Assembly (NCBI GenBank): GCA_013368515.1
Contig: JABWCI010000002.1
Coordinates: 62,001 to 126,000, forward strand
DNA length: 64,000 nucleotides
Direction: 5' to 3'
Origin: Candidatus Altimarinota bacterium
Lineage (GTDB): Bacteria; Patescibacteriota; Gracilibacteria; BD1-5; UBA6164
Shown here piece after piece: positions 27,270-60,220 of the stretch. Position 1 is the first letter of the stretch. Each line of letters begins with the position of its first letter. The notes under the pieces were generated by a model. The model did no database searches and was not told where the DNA came from. It saw only the letters and a list, made by a program, of their open reading frames with translations. A program made the translations under genes and the position numbers.

Positions 27270-27386
27270 AGTTCGTATTTTTTACGAAAATAAAATAATT
27301 TTATTGAGTAAACCGGAAAATACACCAGTAAATCAACAAAACGGATTATATAAATATTTTTTCGTTTTGCAAATTTAATGATTTAC
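27270..27386 (-). promoter_or_regulatory. rpsO upstream region with two stem-loops
   Basis: Adjacent to the rpsO start is TTCGTA / TACGAA with a T loop (27272-27288). Further up, CAAAACG (27339-27345) pairs with CGTTTTG (27363-27369) around an AT loop. The distal one could terminate the upstream ClpX-like transcript; the proximal one would overlap the ribosome entry site of rpsO. Function is inferred. Confidence 0.4.
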
Positions 27387-29525
27387 TTAACTAATATCTT
27401 CAACTTTTATCTCAAGTTTTTCTCACCTATAGTTTTCAATATCTTGTATAAATGGATTAAAAAGTTTTGATAAAATAGGTTTTATACTTCTAGCTCAAAG
27501 TTTCGCCTTTGCTTTTGTTGCTATCATTAATAAAACAGGTTCTGAAATAATTAATTCAACATTTTCAGATTTAAAATAATTGATAAACTTTTCTAATTCT
27601 GATCATGGTTTTTTCATCATTTCTACTAGTTCATTTACTCAAAGTGGCTGAAGAGGAACTATATTTGGAACTCTTCCAAGAACTTCTATTGGAACTCAAG
27701 CTTCTATTAATGTGTCAGTATTTATTTCCACTCATTTATAGTTATTTGTTTTTTCAACCTGTGCTCAGAATCATATCGAACTTCAAGAATCTTCAACTTT
27801 TTTCTCAAATAATCATTGAAAAGCTCATGCAAGCACAAACATAATTCAAGATAAATCAACTCAATTTACTTCTCCGTTTTCTAAACATCCTATAAGTTCC
27901 TTTCTAAAAGGAGAATATGGGTCAAGTAATACTTTATCTGCTTCATCTAAAAATACTATTCATTTTCAGTTGTATACCAAATCAGCAAGTCTTGCCCTAA
28001 ATTCTGCAACACTAATTCATTCAGCTAAATTTATTTTTGAAACTGGAATTTGAGCTTTTTTTGCAAGTAATTCAACTAAATAAGTTTTTCAGCTTCCAGA
28101 AGGTCAAATAAGTAAAGAATTTGGTTGTGGTAATGGTAAATCTGGATTAGCAAGTTTTTTACTATAAAGCATAAAACTTGTTGATAAAGATTTTTTTGCC
28201 TCTTCTTGTCACACAGCATAAAAATCCATATATGCAACTATACTTTTAGGACTTGTCCAATCTACTTTTATATCATCAACTTTTTCAAATTTTACTTCTT
28301 TTTTCATTAATTCTTCAACTTCGTTTGGACTTATGGTGATTTTTTCTCATTTATAATCAGCTCTATTAAAAGAATATTTTCAAACTAGTTCATTTATAAT
28401 ACTTTCAAGTCATCTAGCTCAAACTCATTTAGCACTATTTCTTGCTATAAGTCTTATTGCTTCGTCTTCAAATTCTAAAGTTATTCACATTTTTGCAAAG
28501 TCTTTCACTTTTTGTTTTAAAATAGAATTCTCAGTATGAGCAAGTATTTTATAAAGAGCTTCTTCATCTAAAGGTTCTAAAACAGCCTTATTTGCAAGTC
28601 TTCAAACAAGTTCTGGCATAATACCATATCTTACCAAATCATCATTTGTAACTTGTGATAGTACTTCACTTTCATCAACTCTTGCTTTGTTTCATCATAA
28701 TCTCTTTTGAATCATACTAGATAATGATTGTTGTCAAAATCATCAATTAAAAGCTCAAGCAGTAACTATTAGAAATTTTGATGAATCAATTCAATCAATT
28801 TTATCTCATGAAAAATATGATAATAATTCTTTTTGTAATCTTTCTGTAAATCATGAAGTTCATCTTCACTCTTCTGTTGGTGAAAGTTTATCAAATTCAT
28901 CTAAAAAAACTATAGCTCTTTCCTTTCACCTTAAAACTTGAATTTTTTCTGATAAATTTTCATTTTTGTATCAAGCACTTGTTACATTTGCCATAGAAAT
29001 CTTTACAAATGGGATTCAAGCAGCTTCGCAAAGTACTTTTAAAATATAAGTTTTTCCACTTCAAGTTGGTCAAATAAGCAAACTATGAGAAATAGTTCCA
29101 TAACTTATATAATCAGAAAATGCTACAGATAAAACTTTTTTTGCTTCTTCTTGTCCAGAAACATATTTATCTAAATATCATTTTATACTTCTTGGATCAG
29201 CCCAATCAACTTGTTCGTTAGGAGTTTCATGTTTTGGTTCAATAACTTTAGGAATATTATTTTCAATTTTTGGTTTTTTTTTGAATTTTTTTAATAAATA
29301 GTCATAAATAATTGAAGTTTCTTTTTTATGTATAGCTTCAATTAAAAAATCTATTTGTTTCTTATCTAATTTCTCAATTGTCTCAATTAAAGCATTTATT
29401 TTATCAGATTCTGCTTCTGGATACATTGCTCATAAAACTGTTCTGTATTCATCTTTTTGTTTTTGAGTTAATGAACTTGCAACTACTCATAGTCATCATC
29501 AAAATATTAAATCATTTGCTCACAT
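27387..29525 (-). CDS. Tandem double-AAA+ ATPase of the ClpX type
   Basis: A 712-residue protein with two full ClpX-like AAA+ modules in one chain. Each is introduced by a similar phrase: DWADPRSIKGYLDKYVSGQEEAKK (first 20 residues diagnostic) and DWTSPKSIVAYMDFYAVGQE. Module 1 has LLIGPTGSGKTYIL (about residue 155), Walker B AIVFLDEFDKL (about 202), MPELVGRLANKAVLEPL (about 303) and the sensor-2 block GVGARGLESIINEL. Module 2 has LLIGPSGSGKTYLV (about 472), GIVFLDEADKVLLD (about 520), PIEVLGRVPNIVPLQPLG and ALGARSIKPILSKL. The ClpX zinc finger is absent; the first 100 residues are helical and charged. Ordinary ClpX has one module. No clpP is near. It is probably an unfoldase; the substrate is unknown. 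Confidence 0.82.
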
Positions 29526-29658
29526 AAAAATAAGTTAAAAATTAAACGTACTTTTATTTTATCATATTTACATTTTGAAAGCAAATTTACTTAAACTTAA
29601 ATTTGAAATTTTAACAATAAAAACTATTATAGTTATAGTTATTTAGAGAACTATTTTT

Positions 29659-49562: not shown

Positions 49563-50007
49563 GGGGCTATTTATGGTTTCTATCGGGAGAATCGTCCGGG
49601 TTATATGCTATTAGGGAGATGTTTATGCCTTCCTCAATCAATCATAAACAAGCATAATTGCTAAAACAAGAATTCAAGGTGGTTTAACTGCATTTAAAAA
49701 TGCTTTAACTCCAGCTTTCGTTGTTGCATAATAACTTGCAATAACAGTAGCCTTCACAAGTTGATGAGCGCCGGTTGGCCTGCTACAAAATCTATAATCT
49801 TTCACTTGAAGAATTTTATAGATTATACATTCAAGTCTTATAGGATCGGTTTTGACAAAGTCTTGTACCTATAAGTACCGATAGACAAGGTCTTCTTTTA
49901 CACTTTTTGTTTGTTTTTCATGTAAAAGAATATCAAAATAAACTATAATAGTAGATGTGTTTCCTTGGCCTTCCGAGACACGAGTTCAAATCTCGTTAGC
50001 TCCACCA
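49563..50007 (+). ncRNA. ssrA: tmRNA (SsrA)
   Basis: A 445-base transfer-messenger RNA that rescues ribosomes stalled on broken messages. The 5' end GGGGCTATTTATGG and 3' end TTAGCTCCACCA form the Ala-tRNA-like acceptor (GGGGCTA / TAGCTCC). The T-arm is ACGAG-TTCAAAT-CTCGT, and the CCA is encoded. Between them lie the pseudoknot region GC-richer than the genome and the tag ORF at 49660. The downstream pairing ATCTATAATCT... / AGATTATA region forms internal helices. Its 3' end is a well-known integration site for mobile DNA, and an accessory island starts right after it. Confidence 0.95.
49660..49731 (+). other. tmRNA tag-peptide reading frame
   Basis: Starting at the resume codon GCT, the frame reads AKTRIQGGLTAFKNALTP then AFVVA, followed by TAA TAA. 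At 23 residues it is longer than the usual 8-15 and more basic. The hydrophobic end FVVA is analogous to the LAA end recognised by proteases. Glycines use GGT here, not TGA. The exact resume codon is inferred from conservation of Ala. Confidence 0.7.
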
Positions 50008-50707: not shown

Positions 50708-51571
50708 ATGAGTAAGGTTTCGATTAGATTTTTCGATGATAGGGAAGTTAGAGCTATTTGGGATGAGCAAAATTCTAAATGGTGGTATTCTATTATTGAT
50801 ATAATATCTATTTTAACAGATAGTAAATCTCCAAGAAAATATTGGAGTGTTATGAAAACAAGATTAAAAAAAGAATGAAATCAGTTGACTACAAAATGTA
50901 GCCAACTGAAATTGGAATCTTCAGATGGAAAAAAATATGCTACAGATTGTTTTTCTCAAGATGATATTTTAGAGGTTATTAAGCTCATTCCGTGAAAAAA
51001 CTCTATAAAATTTCTTGATTGGTTTACTTATAATGATAATAGTATTGACTGACAAAGTAAACTAAAAGCATATAATTTGTTTGAAAGTAATTTAATCAAT
51101 GAATTTGAAATTGGTACATCAAAATGATTACAACAAATACATGCATATCTTTTTGGTTGACTTTATGATTTTGCTTGAAAAATCAGACAAAAAAATATCT
51201 CAAAATGAGGTTTTAGATTTGCAAGTGCAGAGTTTTTAGAAGATACTCTAAAAGATATAGAAAAAATGCCAGAAAATACATTTGAAGAGATCATAAATAA
51301 ATACATAGAGATGAATATCGCTCATCCATTTATGGAATGAAATGGTAGAAGTGCAAGGATTTGGCTTGATCTTATTATGAAAAAACAATTAAAAAAATGT
51401 GTTGATTGGAGTCAAATAAGTAAAAATGACTATATGAATGCTATGATAGAAAGTCCTAAAAATACTGATAATATAACAAACTTGATAAAAAATGCATTAA
51501 CTCCAGAAATACATAGTCGTGAAATGTATATGAAATGAATCGATTATAGTTATTATTATGAAGAAGAATAA
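50708..51571 (+). CDS. Fic-domain protein with N-terminal BRO-N (antirepressor-like) domain
   Basis: A 287-residue protein with two domains. Residues 1-100 ([54 protein letters not shown]) match the BRO-N domain of phage antirepressors, a DNA-binding module. Residues 120-260 are a Fic domain: [20 protein letters not shown], the NISKGGFRFA loop and the catalytic [18 protein letters not shown] (His207), which is intact. Fic enzymes transfer AMP or another nucleotide to target proteins. No N-terminal inhibitory SxxxEG helix is seen. It is placed at the head of the restriction island and shares its upstream repeat with hsdM. It may be a toxin or a regulator. Confidence 0.85.
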
Positions 51572-51582
51572 AAAGCATTTAT

Positions 51583-51652
51583 TTTAAATGTTTTTGAATA
51601 TATAAAAAATGGTTTTAATAGAAATAGTTTAATTAATTTTAATGATGAAAAT
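51583..51652 (+). promoter_or_regulatory. Shared promoter/operator repeat, copy B (before hsdM)
   Basis: Second copy of the block at 50635-50707, with the same order of AAATGTTTTT, AATATATAAAAAA and TGGTTTTAATAGAAATA, and a one-base deletion. It fills nearly all of the gap between the Fic and hsdM genes. Confidence 0.7.
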
Positions 51653-53224
51653 ATGACAGATGCACAAAAACAACTCCTTGAAAAACAACTTTGGAATATA
51701 GCAGATGAACTTAGAGGTAAGATGTCTGCAGATGAGTTTAGAGATTATATTTTAGGGTTTATTTTTTATAAATATTTATCTGAAAAAATAGAATTAAAAG
51801 CTAATAAACTTTTAAAAGATTGATGAGTAAATAAAAAATATAATGAATTAAATACAAAAACTGAATCTGATATAATAGAAGCTGTAAAAGAGGAGTCTAT
51901 TGAAGATTTGTGATATTTTTTGATGCCACAAGAACTTTTTTCTGAAATAGCAAAAAAATGAAATAGTACAAGTGAAAAACAAGATAATAATTTCATACTT
52001 GATGATTTACAAAAAATCTTAAAAAATATAGAATCTTCTACTATGTGAGCTGATAGTGAAGATGATTTTAATGATTTATTTAGAGATTTAGATTTAACTA
52101 ATCCTAAACTTGGTAGAACTACAGAAGAAAAAAATAAACTAGTTTCAAAGATATTATGACACTTAGATAAAATAGATTTTGCTTTAGAAAATACTGAAAT
52201 AGATGTACTTTGAGATGCTTATGAATATCTAATAGCACAATTTGCAAGTTGAGCAGGAAAAAAAGCATGAGAATTTTATACACCACAACAAGTTTCTACA
52301 ATTCTTGCGAAACTTGTAACAAGTGGAAAAACTCAAATAAAATCAGTTTATGATCCAACTTGTTGAAGTTGAAGTCTACTTTTGAGAGTTGCAAAACAAG
52401 TAAAACAAGTTTGAGAATTTTTTGGTCAAGAAATGAATCTAACAACATACAATCTTGCTCGTATGAATATGATTTTGCACGATGTAAATTATAGAAATTT
52501 TGATATAAAAAATGGTGATACTTTAGAACATCCAGAACATTTAGAAAAAAGATTTGAAGCAATAGTTGCAAATCCTCCATTTTCTCTTCAATGGTCTCAT
52601 CAATGAAAAAATACTGATGATAGATTTAGTCAATATTGAAGATTAGCTCCTATAAAAAGAGCTGATTATGCTTTTGTACAACATATGATTTATCAACTTG
52701 ATGAAAATGGTATTATGGCAGTTGTATTACCACATTGAGTTTTATTTACAGGTGATGCAAATTGACATATAAGAAGATATTTAATAGAAAATAAAAATTA
52801 TTTAGATACTGTTATATGATTACCAGCAAATATATTTTATGGTACTTCTATACCTACTTGTATTTTGGTATTTAAAAAATGTAGAGAAAATCCAGATGAT
52901 ATCTTGTTTATAGATGCCTCAAATGATTTTGAAAAAGGAAAAAATCAAAATAGATTGAGAGATGAAGATATAGAAAAAATTATTGATACTTATAAAAATA
53001 GAACTGAAATAAAAAAATATTCTCATAAAGCAAATTTAACTGAAATATCAGAAAATGATTACAATTTAAATATTCCTCGTTATGTAGATACTTTTGAAGA
53101 AGAAGATGAAATAGATTTAAATTCAGTTGCTGAAAGGATTATAGAAATAGAAAAAGAAAGTGAAATTTTAGATGAGAAAATAAGAAATTATTGTAATGAG
53201 CTCTGAATAAAAAGTCCATTTTAG
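51653..53224 (+). CDS. hsdM: Type I restriction-modification methyltransferase subunit HsdM
   Basis: A 523-residue N6-adenine methyltransferase. HsdM N-terminal helical domain: [20 protein letters not shown] and [20 protein letters not shown]-binding block [20 protein letters not shown] (about residues 235-254) and catalytic NPPF at Asn307 ([17 protein letters not shown]), with [20 protein letters not shown] downstream. It forms M2S with HsdS for methylation and R2M2S with HsdR for cleavage. Length is standard. It precedes the NYN nuclease gene by 68 bases. The stop is TAG. Confidence 0.97.
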
Positions 53225-53292
53225 TTAAAAATTTTACTCTTAATTTTTAATTTTTAAAATTGATACTGATTTTAAAGTTAATTTAATAAATT

Positions 53293-53799
53293 ATGACAAC
53301 AAAAGAAAGGAATATAGCTTTTATAGATGCCCAAAATTTACATCTATGAACAGCATCAGAGGATTGGAAAATAGATTTTAAAAGATTTAGAATTTATTTA
53401 AAAGATAAATTTCATATAGAGGAAGCTTATTTTTTCTTATGATTTATTAATGACGATCATAAAGAAATGTATAGAAAAATACAAAAAGCAGGTTTTATAT
53501 TAGAATTCAGAGATCATAATTCTAATATGTTATGAAAGAAAAAATGAAATGTAGATGTTGATATAGTTTTTGAAGTTATGCATAGACTTCTAGAAGAAGA
53601 TGATTTTAATAAAATTGTATTAGTTACTTGAGATTGAGATTATATTCAGTTAGTTAAATATTTAATTCAAAAAGAAAGGTTGAAAAGGATTTTGTTTCCA
53701 AATAGTAAATATTCTAGTTTATATAAACCTTTTAAGGATTTATATTGAATGAATCTTTCTGAAGAGAGAGTGAAGAATATATTAAAATTTATACAATAA
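53293..53799 (+). CDS. NYN-domain (PIN-like) nuclease, LabA/DUF88 type
   Basis: A 168-residue protein. RNIAFIDAQNLHLGTASEDW gives the first catalytic Asp, GNVDVDIVFEVMHRLL (about residue 85) the central acids, and IVLVTGDGDYIQLVKYLIQK (about 112) the D-x-D site. This is the NYN/LabA fold of metal-dependent RNases. It sits between hsdM and hsdS, where small accessory nucleases occur in many type I loci. Its target could be RNA of invading elements or tRNA, but that is inference. It ends in an imperfect hairpin. TGA codes glycines in the catalytic block. Confidence 0.85.
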
Positions 53800-53843
53800 A
53801 AAAGAGCCGTCCGGAAGCACTAACACTTTTAGGAGACTCTTTT
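53798..53843 (+). terminator. Imperfect hairpin after the NYN gene
   Basis: AAAAGAGCCGTCC can pair with GGAGACTCTTTT; mismatched, with a 20-base loop. It separates hsdM-NYN from hsdS. Confidence 0.5.
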
Positions 53844-53932
53844 GTCGTGAACATATAAATTATATCAAAAATAATCTATTTTGTCAAAAATACTTTTATT
53901 ATTTATCTTGACATCATTTAATAATTAAACCT

Positions 53933-55078
53933 ATGACACAAATAAAAGCACATATTCCAAAAATAAGATTTAAAGAATTTTCTTGAGAATGGGAAAATTG
54001 AAAAATAGAAGATAATTTTCAAGTTCGTATGTGTAAAATAATTTTTAATCATGAAACTTCTAATGATTGAGAAATCCCATTTTATAAAATATGAACTATT
54101 TGAAAACAAGCAGATTCTTTTATTTCAAAAGAACTTTTTGATGAGTATAAAACAAAATATAATTATCCTAAAAAGTGAGAGTTAATGCTTACTTGTAGCT
54201 GAACAGTTTGAAGAACAATAATTTTTGATTGAAAAGATTCTTATTTTCAAGATTCAAATATAGTTTGGCTAGATAATCAAAAATCTGAAATAAATAATAA
54301 TTTTCTTTATTATATTATATCAAACTATGATTGGTGAAAATTAAATGCAACTACAATCACAAGAATATATAATGATGATTTAAGAAAATTAAAAATTTCT
54401 TTCCCTTCTCTTCCAGAACAACAAAAAATTGCTTCTTTTCTCTCATCAGTTGATGAAAAAATAGAAAAAATCAAAGAAAAAAAGAAAAATCTTGAAGAGT
54501 ATAAAAAGTGAGTTATGCAAAAGATTTTTAGTCAAGAAATAAGATTTAAAGATGAGAATTGAGAAGAGTTTGGAGAGTGGGAAGAGAAGAAGTTGGCAGA
54601 GATTTGTGAAAAACAATCTTCAAATATCTCTGCAAATACTTTAGAAACAAATACTTGAAATTATAAAATTTATTGAGCAACTTGATTTTTAAAATTCATT
54701 GATTTTTATCAAGAAGAAGATGATTATATATCAATAGTTAAAGATTGAGCTTGAGTTTGAAGAGTTTTATATTGTGAATGAAAAAGTTCAGTTTTAGGAA
54801 CTTTAGATAAAATCAAACCTAAAAAATGAACAAATTTAAATTTTTTACTTTCAGTATTAAGCAATATTGATTTTACTAAATATACTATTTGAAGTACAAT
54901 TCCACATATTTATTTTAAAGATTATTGAAAAGAGAAAGTTAATCTTCCAACTTTAAAAGAACAAGAAAAAATCGCAGATTTTTTATCTGGAATTGATGAA
55001 AAAATAGAAAAAGTAAGTGATGAACTTGAAAAAATGAAAGAGTTTAAAAAAGGTTTGTTGCAGGGGATGTTTGTTTAA
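53933..55078 (+). CDS. hsdS: Type I restriction specificity subunit HsdS
   Basis: A 381-residue protein with the two-fold architecture of HsdS. TRD1 covers about residues 10-165 ([36 protein letters not shown]), ending in the conserved helix [23 protein letters not shown]2 follows from about 205 ([20 protein letters not shown]) and ends in [20 protein letters not shown]. The similar helices space the two target-recognition domains that read the bipartite DNA site. The start at 53933 gives the standard N-terminus; the molecule looks intact. Confidence 0.93.
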
Positions 55079-55105
55079 TTAGTTTATATTTAAATTTTAG
55101 AAATT

Positions 55106-55822
55106 ATGGAAAATAAAATTTATAAAAAATACGATTTTAGCTTTTATTTAACTAAAGAAAATTTTAATAAATTATATGATTTTTTAAATAAATATTATAA
55201 TAAAATAGATTTAGAAATAATTATTAGAGATTCTACTGAAATTAAACTAACAAAAGAGGATTTTCTAAATTACGATAATTATTATTGAGAAGATATAATT
55301 GAACTTAAAATTAATTGTAGTATTAGTAATGATTATAAAAACAGCTTAGATATAAAACTTTGAGATAGTGATATAAATGATTTTTTCGAATCTTGAAATA
55401 GCTTTAGATTACACTCAACTGATAAATTAAAGTTTAAAGAAATTAAAGAATGATTAGAAAAAATACTATTTAATGATTTTAAAGTTTGGTATAGTTTTTT
55501 AAATAAATGAGTTATATATTCTATTTTAAATGTTATAATACTAGATATTATAATATATTTATGTTTTAAAAATTATTTTGACCATGAAAATAAATATATA
55601 ATTATTTATCTTTTATCAATTGCTGTGCTTATTTTTATACAACATACTCCATATAAAGCATTATTCAGGTTTATTTTTCCTAAATTTATTTTTTGAATAT
55701 GAAATCAAGAAAAACAAATTGAAAATAAAAAAAATTGGAGAAATATAATTTTCATAGTTATTATATTGTGAATAATATTATCAATAGTAGGTAGTTATTT
55801 ATATAGTTTTATATCTAAATAA
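55106..55822 (+). CDS. Membrane protein within the restriction locus, unknown
   Basis: A 238-residue protein. The first 135 residues are soluble, acidic and beta-rich (YDFSFYLTKENFNKLYDFLN, LEIIIRDSTEIKLTKED, IIELKINCSISNDYKNSL). Then come three hydrophobic helices: GVIYSILNVIILDIIIYLCF, IIIYLLSIAVLIFIQ and IIFIVIILGIILSIVGSYLYS. No known domain. It is placed between hsdS and the second Fic gene and has the same orientation as both. Membrane proteins inside defence islands can be effectors, but nothing in the sequence shows that here. Confidence 0.7.
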
Positions 55823-55937
55823 TTCAGAAAATAATCTAATAAAAACACCCAACATTTTTATATAAATTTAATGATTATAAGTTGATTATTTAAAAAATCA
55901 TTATCAATTAATTATATTATGATAATGTTTTGATAAT

Positions 55938-56047
55938 ATAATACTACTAATTAGTAATAAACTAGTAATATTATAGTAATATAATTTGATTTATATAAAA
56001 ATAATATATAATACTACTAATTAGTAATAAATTAGTAATGTTTTAGT
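55938..56047 (+). promoter_or_regulatory. Two direct repeats with palindromic core, operator-like
   Basis: A 40-base unit ATAATACTACTAATTAGTAA.. occurs at 55938-55977 and 56008-56047, exactly 70 bases apart. Each contains the 12-base palindrome TACTAATTAGTA (55945-55956, 56015-56026) and a downstream half-site CTAGTAAT. They lie just before the Fic gene at 56069, whose C-terminus looks like a winged helix, so autoregulation is likely. This is inference. Confidence 0.75.
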
Positions 56048-56068
56048 TGTATAATTTAAAAATTATTT

Positions 56069-57397
56069 ATGATAGAATATAAAATAGAAAAACCTGATTT
56101 TTTAAAAATTTCAAAAGAAAGAAAAGCTTTTTTAAATGAAAATATGTTTAAATTATTTTTCAAATATAATTTATTTAAGTATTCAAATGAAACTTATTAT
56201 TATTGGGATAAAATTAAATTTCAAACTCTTCCAGAAGAATTAGAAAATCATATAGAGCTTTGGTATATTGTGTCAAATGTTAGAATTTTATCATATACTG
56301 TAGTTAATGATAAAAATGGAAATCATTTTCTACTTGAAAAACCTAAATTTTTAGAGGAATTATTACACAAGCTTGATTTATCATTAGGATGAACTTTTTT
56401 ATGAATGAATTTTAACGATAATGAAAGAAAAATATTTTTACAAAATGGTATTACAGAAGAAGCAATTTCAACAAGTCAATTAGAGTGAGCTATGACTAGT
56501 TCAAAAGATGCTCGTGAGATGATACAAAAATGAAGAAAACCAATCACAAAAGATGAGAAAATGATTTTAAATAGTTATAAGGCTATGAATTTCATAAATA
56601 GTGAGGAATTTTTAGAAAAAAAACTTAGTATAGAGTCACTTTTAGAATTACAAAGTATTTTAACTAAAGATACTTTAGATGATAAAACAGAAGAATGAAG
56701 ATTTAGAAATGATAGTGATGAAATAGTTGTTCAAAATTCTACTTGAACAGAGATTTATCATATCCCACCAAATGAAAAAATATTGCAAGAAGAACTTAAA
56801 AAACTTGTTTCTTATGCTAATGATGAAGATTCTAATTTTACACACCCTTTTATCAAAGCAACTATATTACATTTTTGGATTTGATATTTACATCCTTTTT
56901 GTGATTGAAATGGTAGAACTGCTAGGAGTCTATTTTATTGGTATTTATTAAAAAAATGATATTGGGGATTTAGTTATATTCCTATTTCAAGTGTTATTAA
57001 AAATTCTAAAACACAATATAATAATGCATATATTTACAGTGAACAAGATGACAATAACTTAACTTATTTTTTAGTCTATATAGCAAATAAAACAAAACAA
57101 GCTTTTGAAGATTTTGAAAAATATTTAGATAAAAAAAGAAAAGAACAAAAATCTGTTATTTCTCTAGTTAGTCATTTATGATTAAATGAAAGACAGACAA
57201 AACTTATTTCTTATTTTTTAAAGAATAATTGAAGTTATACAAATAATTCAATTCATAAAAATTATTATTGAATTGCAATAGATACTGCTAAAAGAGATTT
57301 AGAATATTTGCTTGAAAAATGATTTTTAATAAAACAAAAACAATGAAAATATGTAAATTATTTTCCAGTAAAAAATTTAGCAGATTTAATAAAATAA
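56069..57397 (+). CDS. Fic-family protein with inhibitory helix and C-terminal winged helix
   Basis: A 442-residue protein. An N-terminal region of about 120 residues precedes an inhibitory motif EEAISTSQLEGAMTS (about 130-145; the S/T-x3-E-G pattern of class II Fic proteins that self-block ATP). The catalytic motif is LHPFCDGNGRTARSLF (His275), intact. The last 80 residues (LGLNERQTKLISYFLKNNGS, TAKRDLEYLLEKGFLIKQ) look like a winged helix-turn-helix. Probably a protein AMP-transferase held off by its own helix and regulating its own promoter through the repeats upstream. The hsdR start follows three bases after its stop, so it is embedded in the restriction operon. Confidence 0.88.
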
Positions 57398-57400
57398 TCT

Positions 57401-60220
57401 ATGAACACAATCCAATCAGAAGCACAACTAGAAAATAATCTAATAAAACAACTACAAGGTCTAGAATATGATTTTGTAACTATAAAAGATGAAAAAGAAC
57501 TTCTAGAAAATCTGAAAAAACAACTTGAAATACACAATTTTAAAACTCTAAATTGAAAAACTCTAACAAATACAGAATTTGATAGAGTTTTAAATCATCT
57601 TAATAAATGAAATGTATTTGAAAGAGCGAAGATTTTGAGAGATAAAATGAGTTTAGAGCTTGATAATGGTAATAAAGCTTGGATTGAGTTTATAAATATG
57701 GATAATTGGTGTCAAAATGAGTTTCAAGTAACAAATCAAATAACTATAGAATGAACTTATAAAAATCGTTATGATGTCACTTTACTTATAAATGGGCTTC
57801 CTCTTGTACAAATAGAACTCAAAAGAAGATGACTCGAACTCAAAGAAGCCTTTAATCAAACAAATCGTTACCAAAGACATAGTTTTTGAAGTGGTATTTG
57901 ATTATTTTCTTATGTTCAATTATTTGTTATAAGTAACGGAGTAAATACAAAGTATTATGCAAATAATAGAAAACAAAGTTTTAAACAAACTTTTTTCTGG
58001 TCAGATGTAAAAAATGAAAACATCACAAAACTAGAAGATTTTACAAAAGTTTTTTTAGAGCCTTGTCATATATCTAAAATGATCACTAGATATATAGTTT
58101 TAAACGAAACTGATAAGATACTTATGGTTTTGAGACCTTATCAATATTTTGCTGTTGAAGCGATTGTTGATAGAGTAAAAAATTCTACTAAAAATGGTTA
58201 TATTTGGCATACAACTTGAAGTGGTAAAACTCTTACTTCTTTTAAGACTGCCCAAATACTTACTAGAATCCCAGAAGTGAAAAAAGTAGTTTTTGTTGTA
58301 GATAGAAAAGATCTAGATTATCAAACTACAAAAGAATTTAATAGTTTTTCAAAATGAAGTATTGATTGAACTGATAATACAACTCAATTAGTAAAACAAT
58401 TTGAGGACAATAACACTCCATTGATTGTTACAACTATACAAAAGCTAAATACAGCTATTTCAAAAGAGAAATATTTGAAAAAAATGGAAGCTTTATCGTG
58501 AGAAAAAATAGTTTTTATCTTTGATGAATGCCATAGAAGTCAATTTTGAGATACTCATGATAGAGTCAAAAAATTTTTTACAAACAATCAAATGTTTGGT
58601 TTTACTGGAACTCCTATATTTGCAGAAAATCACAATAATAAAAGAACTACAAAAGATCTTTTTGAAGAACAACTTCATAGTTATGTCATCACTGATGCTA
58701 TAAAAGATGAAAATGTTTTGAGGTTTTCTGTTGAATATATAGGAAAGTACAAAGAGAAATCAAATACCAATCTTGACATTCAAGTAGAAGATATTGATAC
58801 AAAAGAATTACTGGAATCACCAGATAGACTGGAAAAAATAACTAAGTATATAATAGATAATCATAATTCAAAAACACATAATAAAAGTTTTACTGCTATG
58901 TTTTGTGTGAGTTCTGTTGATACTCTTATTAAGTATTATGAATTATTTAAAAAACAAAATCACAATTTAAAAATAGCTACTATATTTTCTTATGGAGTAA
59001 ATGAAGATGACAAAGATGCTGATTGATTAAATGATGATGTAAATTTAGATATTCCAGAGAATCAAGTAAATAAACATAGTAGAGAAAAACTGGATGAATT
59101 TATATCAGATTATAATAAAACTTTTTGAACAAAATTTTCTACAAAAGATACTGGGGATTTTTATAATTATTACAATGATATAGCAAAAAAGGTAAAAGAA
59201 AGACAAATAGATATTTTACTTGTTGTAAATATGTTTTTGACTTGATTTGATAGTAAAACACTAAATACTTTATATGTAGATAAAAATCTAAGATATCATT
59301 GACTTGTACAAGCTTTTTCTAGAACAAATAGAATATTAAATGAACAAAAATCACAAGGTAATATAGTTTGTTTTAGAAACTTAAAACAAAATGTAGATGA
59401 TGCAATTGCACTTTTTTCAAATAAAGACGCAAAAGAAATTATTTTGATTGAAAGTTTTGAAACTTATGTTAAGTATTTTAATAATGCTTTAGAAAAGCTT
59501 ATTTTAATAGCTCCAAGTATAGAATCTGTGGACTGACTTATTTCAGAAGAAGAACAATTTGAATTTGTAAAAGCTTTTAGAGATTTACTCAGACTTAAAA
59601 ATATACTTGAAACTTTTGTTGATTTTAGTTTTGATAAACTTGAAATTGATGAACAAACATTTGAGGATTATAAATCAAAATATCTAGATATTTATAGAAA
59701 AGTAAAAATAGATAATGAAAAAAATAAAGTTTCAATTCTTGATGATGTAGATTTTGAACTTGAACTTCTTGCAACTGATATAATAAATGTAGATTATATA
59801 TTAAAGCTTCTTTGAAATATACTTGATTCTAGTGATGAAAATTATAAATTAAAGCTTAAAGAACAAGTTTTAAGAACTGTTTCATCAGATCCAAAGATGA
59901 TGAGTAAAAGAGACCTAATTGAGAGATTTATAGAAGAAAATCTTTGAAATATAAAAGATTCTTCAAATTTATCAAATGAGTTTGATAAATTTATGATAAT
60001 ACAAAAATCAAAAGAATTTGAAAAAATGTGTAAAGAAGAAGATATTGATTCTGCTAGATTTGCAAAATTGATAAATGATTATCTTTATACTGAAAAGATG
60101 CCATTAAAAGAAGAAATAGCTGAAACATTGAATTATAAACCAAAATTACTTGAAAGAAAAAATGTAATTGAAAGAATAAAAAATAAGCTTGTAGAATTTA
60201 TAAATATTTTTGAAAGTTAA
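57401..60220 (+). CDS. hsdR: Type I restriction endonuclease subunit HsdR
   Basis: A 939-residue translocase/nuclease. N-terminal nuclease region has [20 protein letters not shown] and [18 protein letters not shown], with Asp and E-x-K of the PD-(D/E)xK site. The helicase part: [13 protein letters not shown], Walker [19 protein letters not shown] (about residue 267), [17 protein letters not shown] box [11 protein letters not shown] (Asp375), [11 protein letters not shown], then [20 protein letters not shown] and AFSRTNRI. It uses ATP to pull DNA and cuts away from the site. It looks intact in full length, and ends at a strong terminator closing the hsd operon. Confidence 0.96.

Follow-up and report, generated by a model that had tools for sequence, protein, structure and literature searches.

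The window, the whole stretch of DNA analyzed here, is 64,000 nucleotides long and comes from a Gracilibacteria-type genome of 1.15 Mb (28 contigs, 95% complete) in which TGA is read as glycine. The gene at 27387..29525 on the minus strand, designated tandem clpX, encodes a 712-aa protein with two AAA+ modules of the ClpX type. The standard code (table 11) breaks the frame and the mycoplasma code (table 4) places Trp at the Walker A glycines, so translation table 25 (TGA=Gly) was used. Under this code, 27387-29525(-) is a single uninterrupted frame with 49 TGA codons located at glycines, including G152, G155, G474, and G479 of the Walker A motifs. An ortholog with the same architecture, 85% identity, and nearly the same length is found at L040:6001-8157 in the independently assembled MAG Candidatus Gracilibacteria bacterium STE_177 (genome G149, JAQVGG010000009.1). 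The two loci have a common gene order of cysS, ftsI-like, murL-like, tandem clpX, relA/spoT-like, pilin, methyltransferase, and argS, with the names of the neighbors assigned by inspection. Between the two orthologs, dN/dS is 0.08 for the first module (module A) and 0.15 for the second (module B), and it reaches 0.66 in the N-terminal 105 residues. Both motor modules are constrained. The syntenic, independently assembled ortholog shows that the tandem gene is real, and the original prediction of one fused protein stands without a frameshift that joined two genes. An artifact of assembly or of the genetic code is extremely improbable, because an independent MAG carries the same gene at the same place, both modules are under purifying selection, and the TGA codons sit on invariant glycines.

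The domain layout was derived from alignment, structure matches, and profile scores, and all of the features that follow are on the minus strand. Module A covers residues 106–409 (28299..29210) and module B covers about residues 421–712 (27390..28298). The tether between them is located at about residues 410–425 (28251..28298), and residues 411–421 are disordered in the predicted structure. The modules are 32% identical over 303 columns (130 bits, E 3e-40). Each opens with the DW-x2-P-(R/K)-SI phrase named in the original prediction, VDWADPRSI in module A (106–114; 29184..29210) and VDWTSPKSI in module B (421–429; 28239..28265). Alignment with E. coli ClpX confirms that each module has its own Walker A, Walker B, and sensor-2 motifs and locates an arginine finger in both. 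In module A, these are GPTGSGKT (152–159; 29049..29072), FLDE (207–210; 28896..28907), GAR (369–371 with R371; 28413..28421), and R309, the counterpart of E. coli ClpX R307 (28599..28601). The module B motifs are GPSGSGKT (474–481; 28083..28106), FLDE (525–528; 27942..27953), GAR (677–679 with R679; 27489..27497), and R618 (27672..27674).

Scored alone, each module has ClpX as its best family: module A gives 163 bits with ClpX versus 116 with HslU, and module B gives 121 versus 55. The predicted structure of module A matches the solved ClpX 4i4l with a Z of 30.7 over 282 residues (rmsd 2.2). The full-chain structure search covered only module A; module B was therefore folded and searched alone, and it matches 4i4l with a Z of 28.6 over 278 residues (rmsd 2.7). 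Profile scores, the phylogenetic tree, and the structure matches place both halves in the ClpX clade, and neither is an HslU or a Lon module. The whole protein scores 256 bits with the curated ClpX model TIGR00382 (cut-off 370.75) and 275 bits with NF003745 (cut-off 359). These scores below the cut-offs make a plain ClpX annotation appear unsuitable, and the protein should not carry one.

The loops that contact substrate and ClpP are distributed between the modules. Module A keeps the pore-1 tyrosine (AGY186KN) in a GYKN loop (185–188; 28962..28973) in place of the GYVG of ClpX, and Tyr186 aligns with E. coli ClpX Tyr153. It retains the pore-2 loop in part and has no IGF loop. In module B, SIGFGA (583–588) aligns with E. 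coli I268-G269-F270, so the ClpP-docking loop whose presence was to be checked is found in this module only (SGSSIGFGAQV, 580–590; 27756..27788). A deletion at LAEGISV (500–506; 28008..28028) takes the G-Y-V of pore-1 out of module B, and its pore-2 loop is also absent. The RKH loop aligns in neither module. Residues I584, F586, and V590 align with Ile268, Phe270, and Val274, the E. coli IGF residues that pack into ClpP (PMC7112951). The IGF loop of module B is predicted to be flexible in the structure models, like the flexible IGF loop of the solved ClpXP. The loop pattern is identical in both orthologs, with IGF stretches of SSIGFGAQV and NSIGFGADI. The original prediction described two complete ClpX-type modules, which is correct for the module type and the full set of ATPase motifs. 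With these loops lost, they are no longer equivalent complete ClpX modules. Judged by the alignments, the divergence of the two modules is complementary, a feature that the original prediction did not note. This pattern suggests that module A is the gripping module and module B the ClpP-docking module.

The N-terminal region (residues 1–105; 29211..29525) evolves fast, has four predicted helices between residues 21 and 81, and matches no Pfam family above the cut-off. None of the four zinc-finger (C4) cysteines of ClpX is present at the aligned positions of the tandem protein. Thus, the zinc-binding domain is missing, as originally proposed, and the helical N-terminal region is in its place. 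This fast-evolving region would replace the zinc finger in substrate choice.

The window genome has one ClpP gene (L009), and no other ClpX was found in it. We consider it an even call that the tandem protein is a ClpX-type unfoldase with the work divided between its two modules, acting as a single ring of three chains on ClpP. Module A would feed the substrate, having kept the pore-1 tyrosine and lost the ClpP-binding loop. Module B would be the coupling module, with an ATPase site that appears complete and with the IGF loop, but without the pore-1, pore-2, and RKH substrate-contact loops. Three chains, each with a tether of ~16 residues, would most likely close into one six-module A-B-A-B-A-B ring. 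Three flexible IGF loops would anchor this ring on the only ClpP of the genome while three tyrosine loops pull the polypeptide, with up to six ATP sites in use. The sequence shows two ClpX modules with intact catalytic residues, loop losses that complement each other, constraint, and a ClpP gene in the genome; from these we infer the ring layout, ClpP binding, ATPase activity, and substrate choice. More tentatively, the protein may be a naturally tethered ClpX dimer whose alternating A-B-A-B-A-B single ring has three modules that grip and three that dock on ClpP, in which case evolution reached, and then specialized, the linked-ring arrangement known from laboratory constructs.

Structure matches in the PDB include hexamers titled W-W-W, W-W-R, and E-R ClpX, which we take to be linked constructs. 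A single-chain ClpX without the N-domain functions as a single ring when its subunits are joined by six-residue linkers, and linked rings still support degradation when most subunits are unable to hydrolyze ATP (PMC7112951). The tether of ~16 residues in the tandem protein compares with six residues plus the natural tails in the linked construct (PMC7112951). The full-chain AlphaFold model, a single chain with a pTM of 0.51, has no confident module-module geometry and cannot decide the layout. Double-ring proteins are absent from the 50 structure matches listed, a result that excludes nothing. Dropping single IGF loops from engineered rings hurts ClpP binding. Changes in the IGF loop also lower ClpP affinity (PMC7112951), so a ring with three loops rather than six may have only weak ClpP binding. 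The ClpP of the window genome ends with ...YGLIDKIIK and lacks the C-terminal HRN of the E. coli protein; by eye, it has no counterpart of Arg192, the E. coli ClpP residue that binds the IGF loop (PMC7112951). Most relatives have ClpP and not the tandem protein, which counts against the mechanism.

The original prediction was a ClpA/ClpB-like two-tier ring with twelve sites. In this arrangement, six chains built from ClpX domains would form two stacked rings, with the B modules in the tier next to ClpP and the A modules in the tier above. We regard this layout as doubtful. It gains from the complete ATPase sites in both modules and from the location of the IGF loop in the second module only, as in ClpA and ClpC, which would supply six IGF loops. 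The window genome also encodes a ClpC-like protein (L002), whose second module itself carries TIGF, and a ClpB-like protein (L001), both named by inspection. However, the ClpP loop is kept in one module only and the pore-1 tyrosine only in the other, and the ring on the ClpP side would be without any pore-1 loop. ClpA-type proteins combine two modules from different AAA+ clades, and their ClpP-side ring has aromatic pore loops. No ring-stacking element was identified in the tandem protein, and linked ClpX modules form single rings (PMC7112951). No result specifically supports the two-tier, twelve-site ring. The single three-chain ring is no less likely, and we place it first with about an even chance of being correct.

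How the two modules came to be joined is a matter of history that is independent of the mechanism. Modules A and B group in the tree with a support of 98/90, and both branches are very long. Approximately unbiased (AU) tests reject joining module A alone (p 0.018) or module B alone (p 0.037) to canonical ClpX. When module A is left out of the tree, module B moves near a Lachnospiraceae ClpX-like group (77/94), and an AU test does not reject constraining module B to that group in the full tree (p 0.171). This placement, together with a match of module B to the Lachnospiraceae locus L050 about as good as its match to module A (129 versus 127 bits), is what a fusion of two different ClpX-like genes has in its favor. 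The 98/90 grouping argues against a fusion, as does the long opening phrase common to A and B in the window protein, VDW-x2-P-(R/K)-SI-x2-Y-x3-Y-x2-GQEEAKK-x-LS. A fusion is unlikely, but it retains some weight. The internal duplication put forward in the original prediction is the better reading; it is favored and not proven, given the long branches and the alternative placement of module B near the Lachnospiraceae group. The Lachnospiraceae MAGs (L051:3468-9573, L050:5500-8616, and L053) have two or three ClpX-like genes of ~500 aa close together, and the encoded proteins have an additional N-terminal region of ~180 residues.

Tandem clpX is rare, and the survey of relatives for the fusion yielded one ortholog. 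The gene is present in 2 of the 77 genomes of the order, G000 and G149. A protein search of 99 class genomes at E 1e-20 returned only the query itself, and relaxing the threshold to E 1e-3 over the order added the G149 ortholog and short, weak AAA+ matches. There were no further tandem copies among the matches examined from the class, the phylum (380 genomes), GTDB genome contigs, IMG/VR, phages, and plasmids; the phylum search scored few candidates per genome with TGA as a stop and was not exhaustive. The phage and plasmid matches span ~1 kb, equal to one module. Three loci with matches over 2.5 kb were rejected as further tandems: L050 has two adjacent genes, and in L054 and L055 a separate 794-aa frame comes after a ClpX-like gene.

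The 77 order genomes yielded no canonical ClpX apart from a zinc-finger fragment in G146. The ClpX cut-off was passed by no gene in 242 class genomes and in 3 of 287 phylum genomes, all from one family. These searches read TGA as a stop, which lowers the scores in code-25 genomes. Even with TGA read as a stop, the tandem gene, with its 14 TGA codons, reached 79 bits, so a canonical ClpX gene probably would have been seen. ClpP is present in 68 of the 77 order genomes.

The gene occupies a variable site between rpsO and murL, with flanks at 27270-27386 and 29526-29658 of the window that were compared with relatives L137, L138, L139, L140, L142, and L143. The rpsO gene is followed directly by the murL-like gene in G144, G143, G140, and G152, and among the murL-like neighbors compared, that of G144 is the closest (90%). 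When the joined flanks are aligned, the gene is missing from the interval in G144, G143, and G140. Elsewhere, the interval contains unrelated frames of 512 aa (G141), 458 aa (G043), and 379 aa with an SLT domain (G138). The empty or otherwise filled interval in relatives shows that tandem clpX was acquired recently, with losses in some relatives, and that the site accepts different cargo. In the window, the insert is bordered on both sides by GCAAATTTA; this is a possible target repeat, and in AT-rich DNA chance can explain it. Before rpsO, the block AAACCGGAAAATACACCAGTAAAT.AACAAA...GGATTATATAA at 27310-27360 has stayed almost constant in G144, G143, and G140, whereas the sequence around it drifts; this block may be a leader or promoter of rpsO.

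Two other regions of the window were recorded. A tmRNA gene at 49563-50007 (+) was detected with Rfam RF00023 (74.6 bits) and missed by ARAGORN. Translated by eye under code 25, its tag is AKTRIQGGLTAFKNALTPAFVVA, which ends in FVVA instead of the usual LAA. The region 50708-60220 contains type I restriction-modification genes (51653, 53933, and 57401) and, nearby, two Fic-like proteins (50708 and 56069), assigned by inspection.

The rarity of tandem clpX, and its absence from close relatives that keep ClpP, would fit a chaperone or regulator that remodels particular targets independently of ClpP and carries the IGF loop as a relic. The three single-module ClpX-like relatives checked, L049 (Caulobacter), L083 (Hoeflea), and L119 (class relative G223), point the same way, having neither a zinc finger nor an IGF loop; they also lack the RKH loop. 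This explanation is improbable, because neighboring positions vary between the two orthologs but both retain the IGF loop. An anti-phage role was rejected because the PADLOC matches are generic AAA matches.

The tandem protein bears on whether all six ClpX subunits need to grip the substrate and hold ClpP, a question studied so far with artificial linked rings. A natural enzyme with gripping and ClpP docking apparently in different modules of one chain makes this requirement testable on an evolved product. It is also a ClpX-type protein from a phylum whose sampled genomes almost entirely lack canonical ClpX (3/287), though ClpP is nearly universal in the order (68/77).

We found no earlier report of a natural tandem ClpX in the open-licence literature, and the tandem protein was compared with the closest known systems. 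HslU (TIGR00390) belongs to the same AAA+ branch and has a similar fold (Z of 26 for module A and 24 for module B), but the tandem alignment has no I-domain and the HslU clade (100/100) leaves out both modules. The zinc-finger-free, single-module ClpX-like proteins L049, L083, and L057 (Catellatospora) are weakly nearest to A+B in the tree (93/91). L049 and L083 are like the tandem protein in having no zinc finger and no RKH loop; they also have no IGF loop and no pore-1 tyrosine. ClpA and ClpC likewise have two AAA+ modules per chain with the ClpP loop in the second. However, both tandem modules are of the ClpX type, and the second is without a pore-1 loop. The two-tier Hsp100 models give scores far below their cut-offs (ClpA, 61 bits with a cut-off of 993; ClpB, 35 bits with a cut-off of 1232). 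The tandem protein fails defining tests of ClpX (zinc finger, RKH loop, and cut-off) and of the two-tier Hsp100 proteins. With ClpX, it has in common the fold, the Walker A and B motifs, the arginine finger, and sensor-2 in both modules, along with the IGF loop in module B and the pore-1 tyrosine in module A. It differs in its two modules per chain, in lacking the zinc finger and the RKH loop, and in the division of loops between the modules. Like the engineered single-chain ClpX without the N-domain, it has zinc-finger-free ClpX modules joined head to tail by a short tether (PMC7112951). Unlike the engineered linked pseudohexamers, it is natural and has two modules per chain that are 32% identical with different loops. 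By analogy, the tandem protein would work like ClpX, and its closest resemblance is to a linked ClpX dimer.
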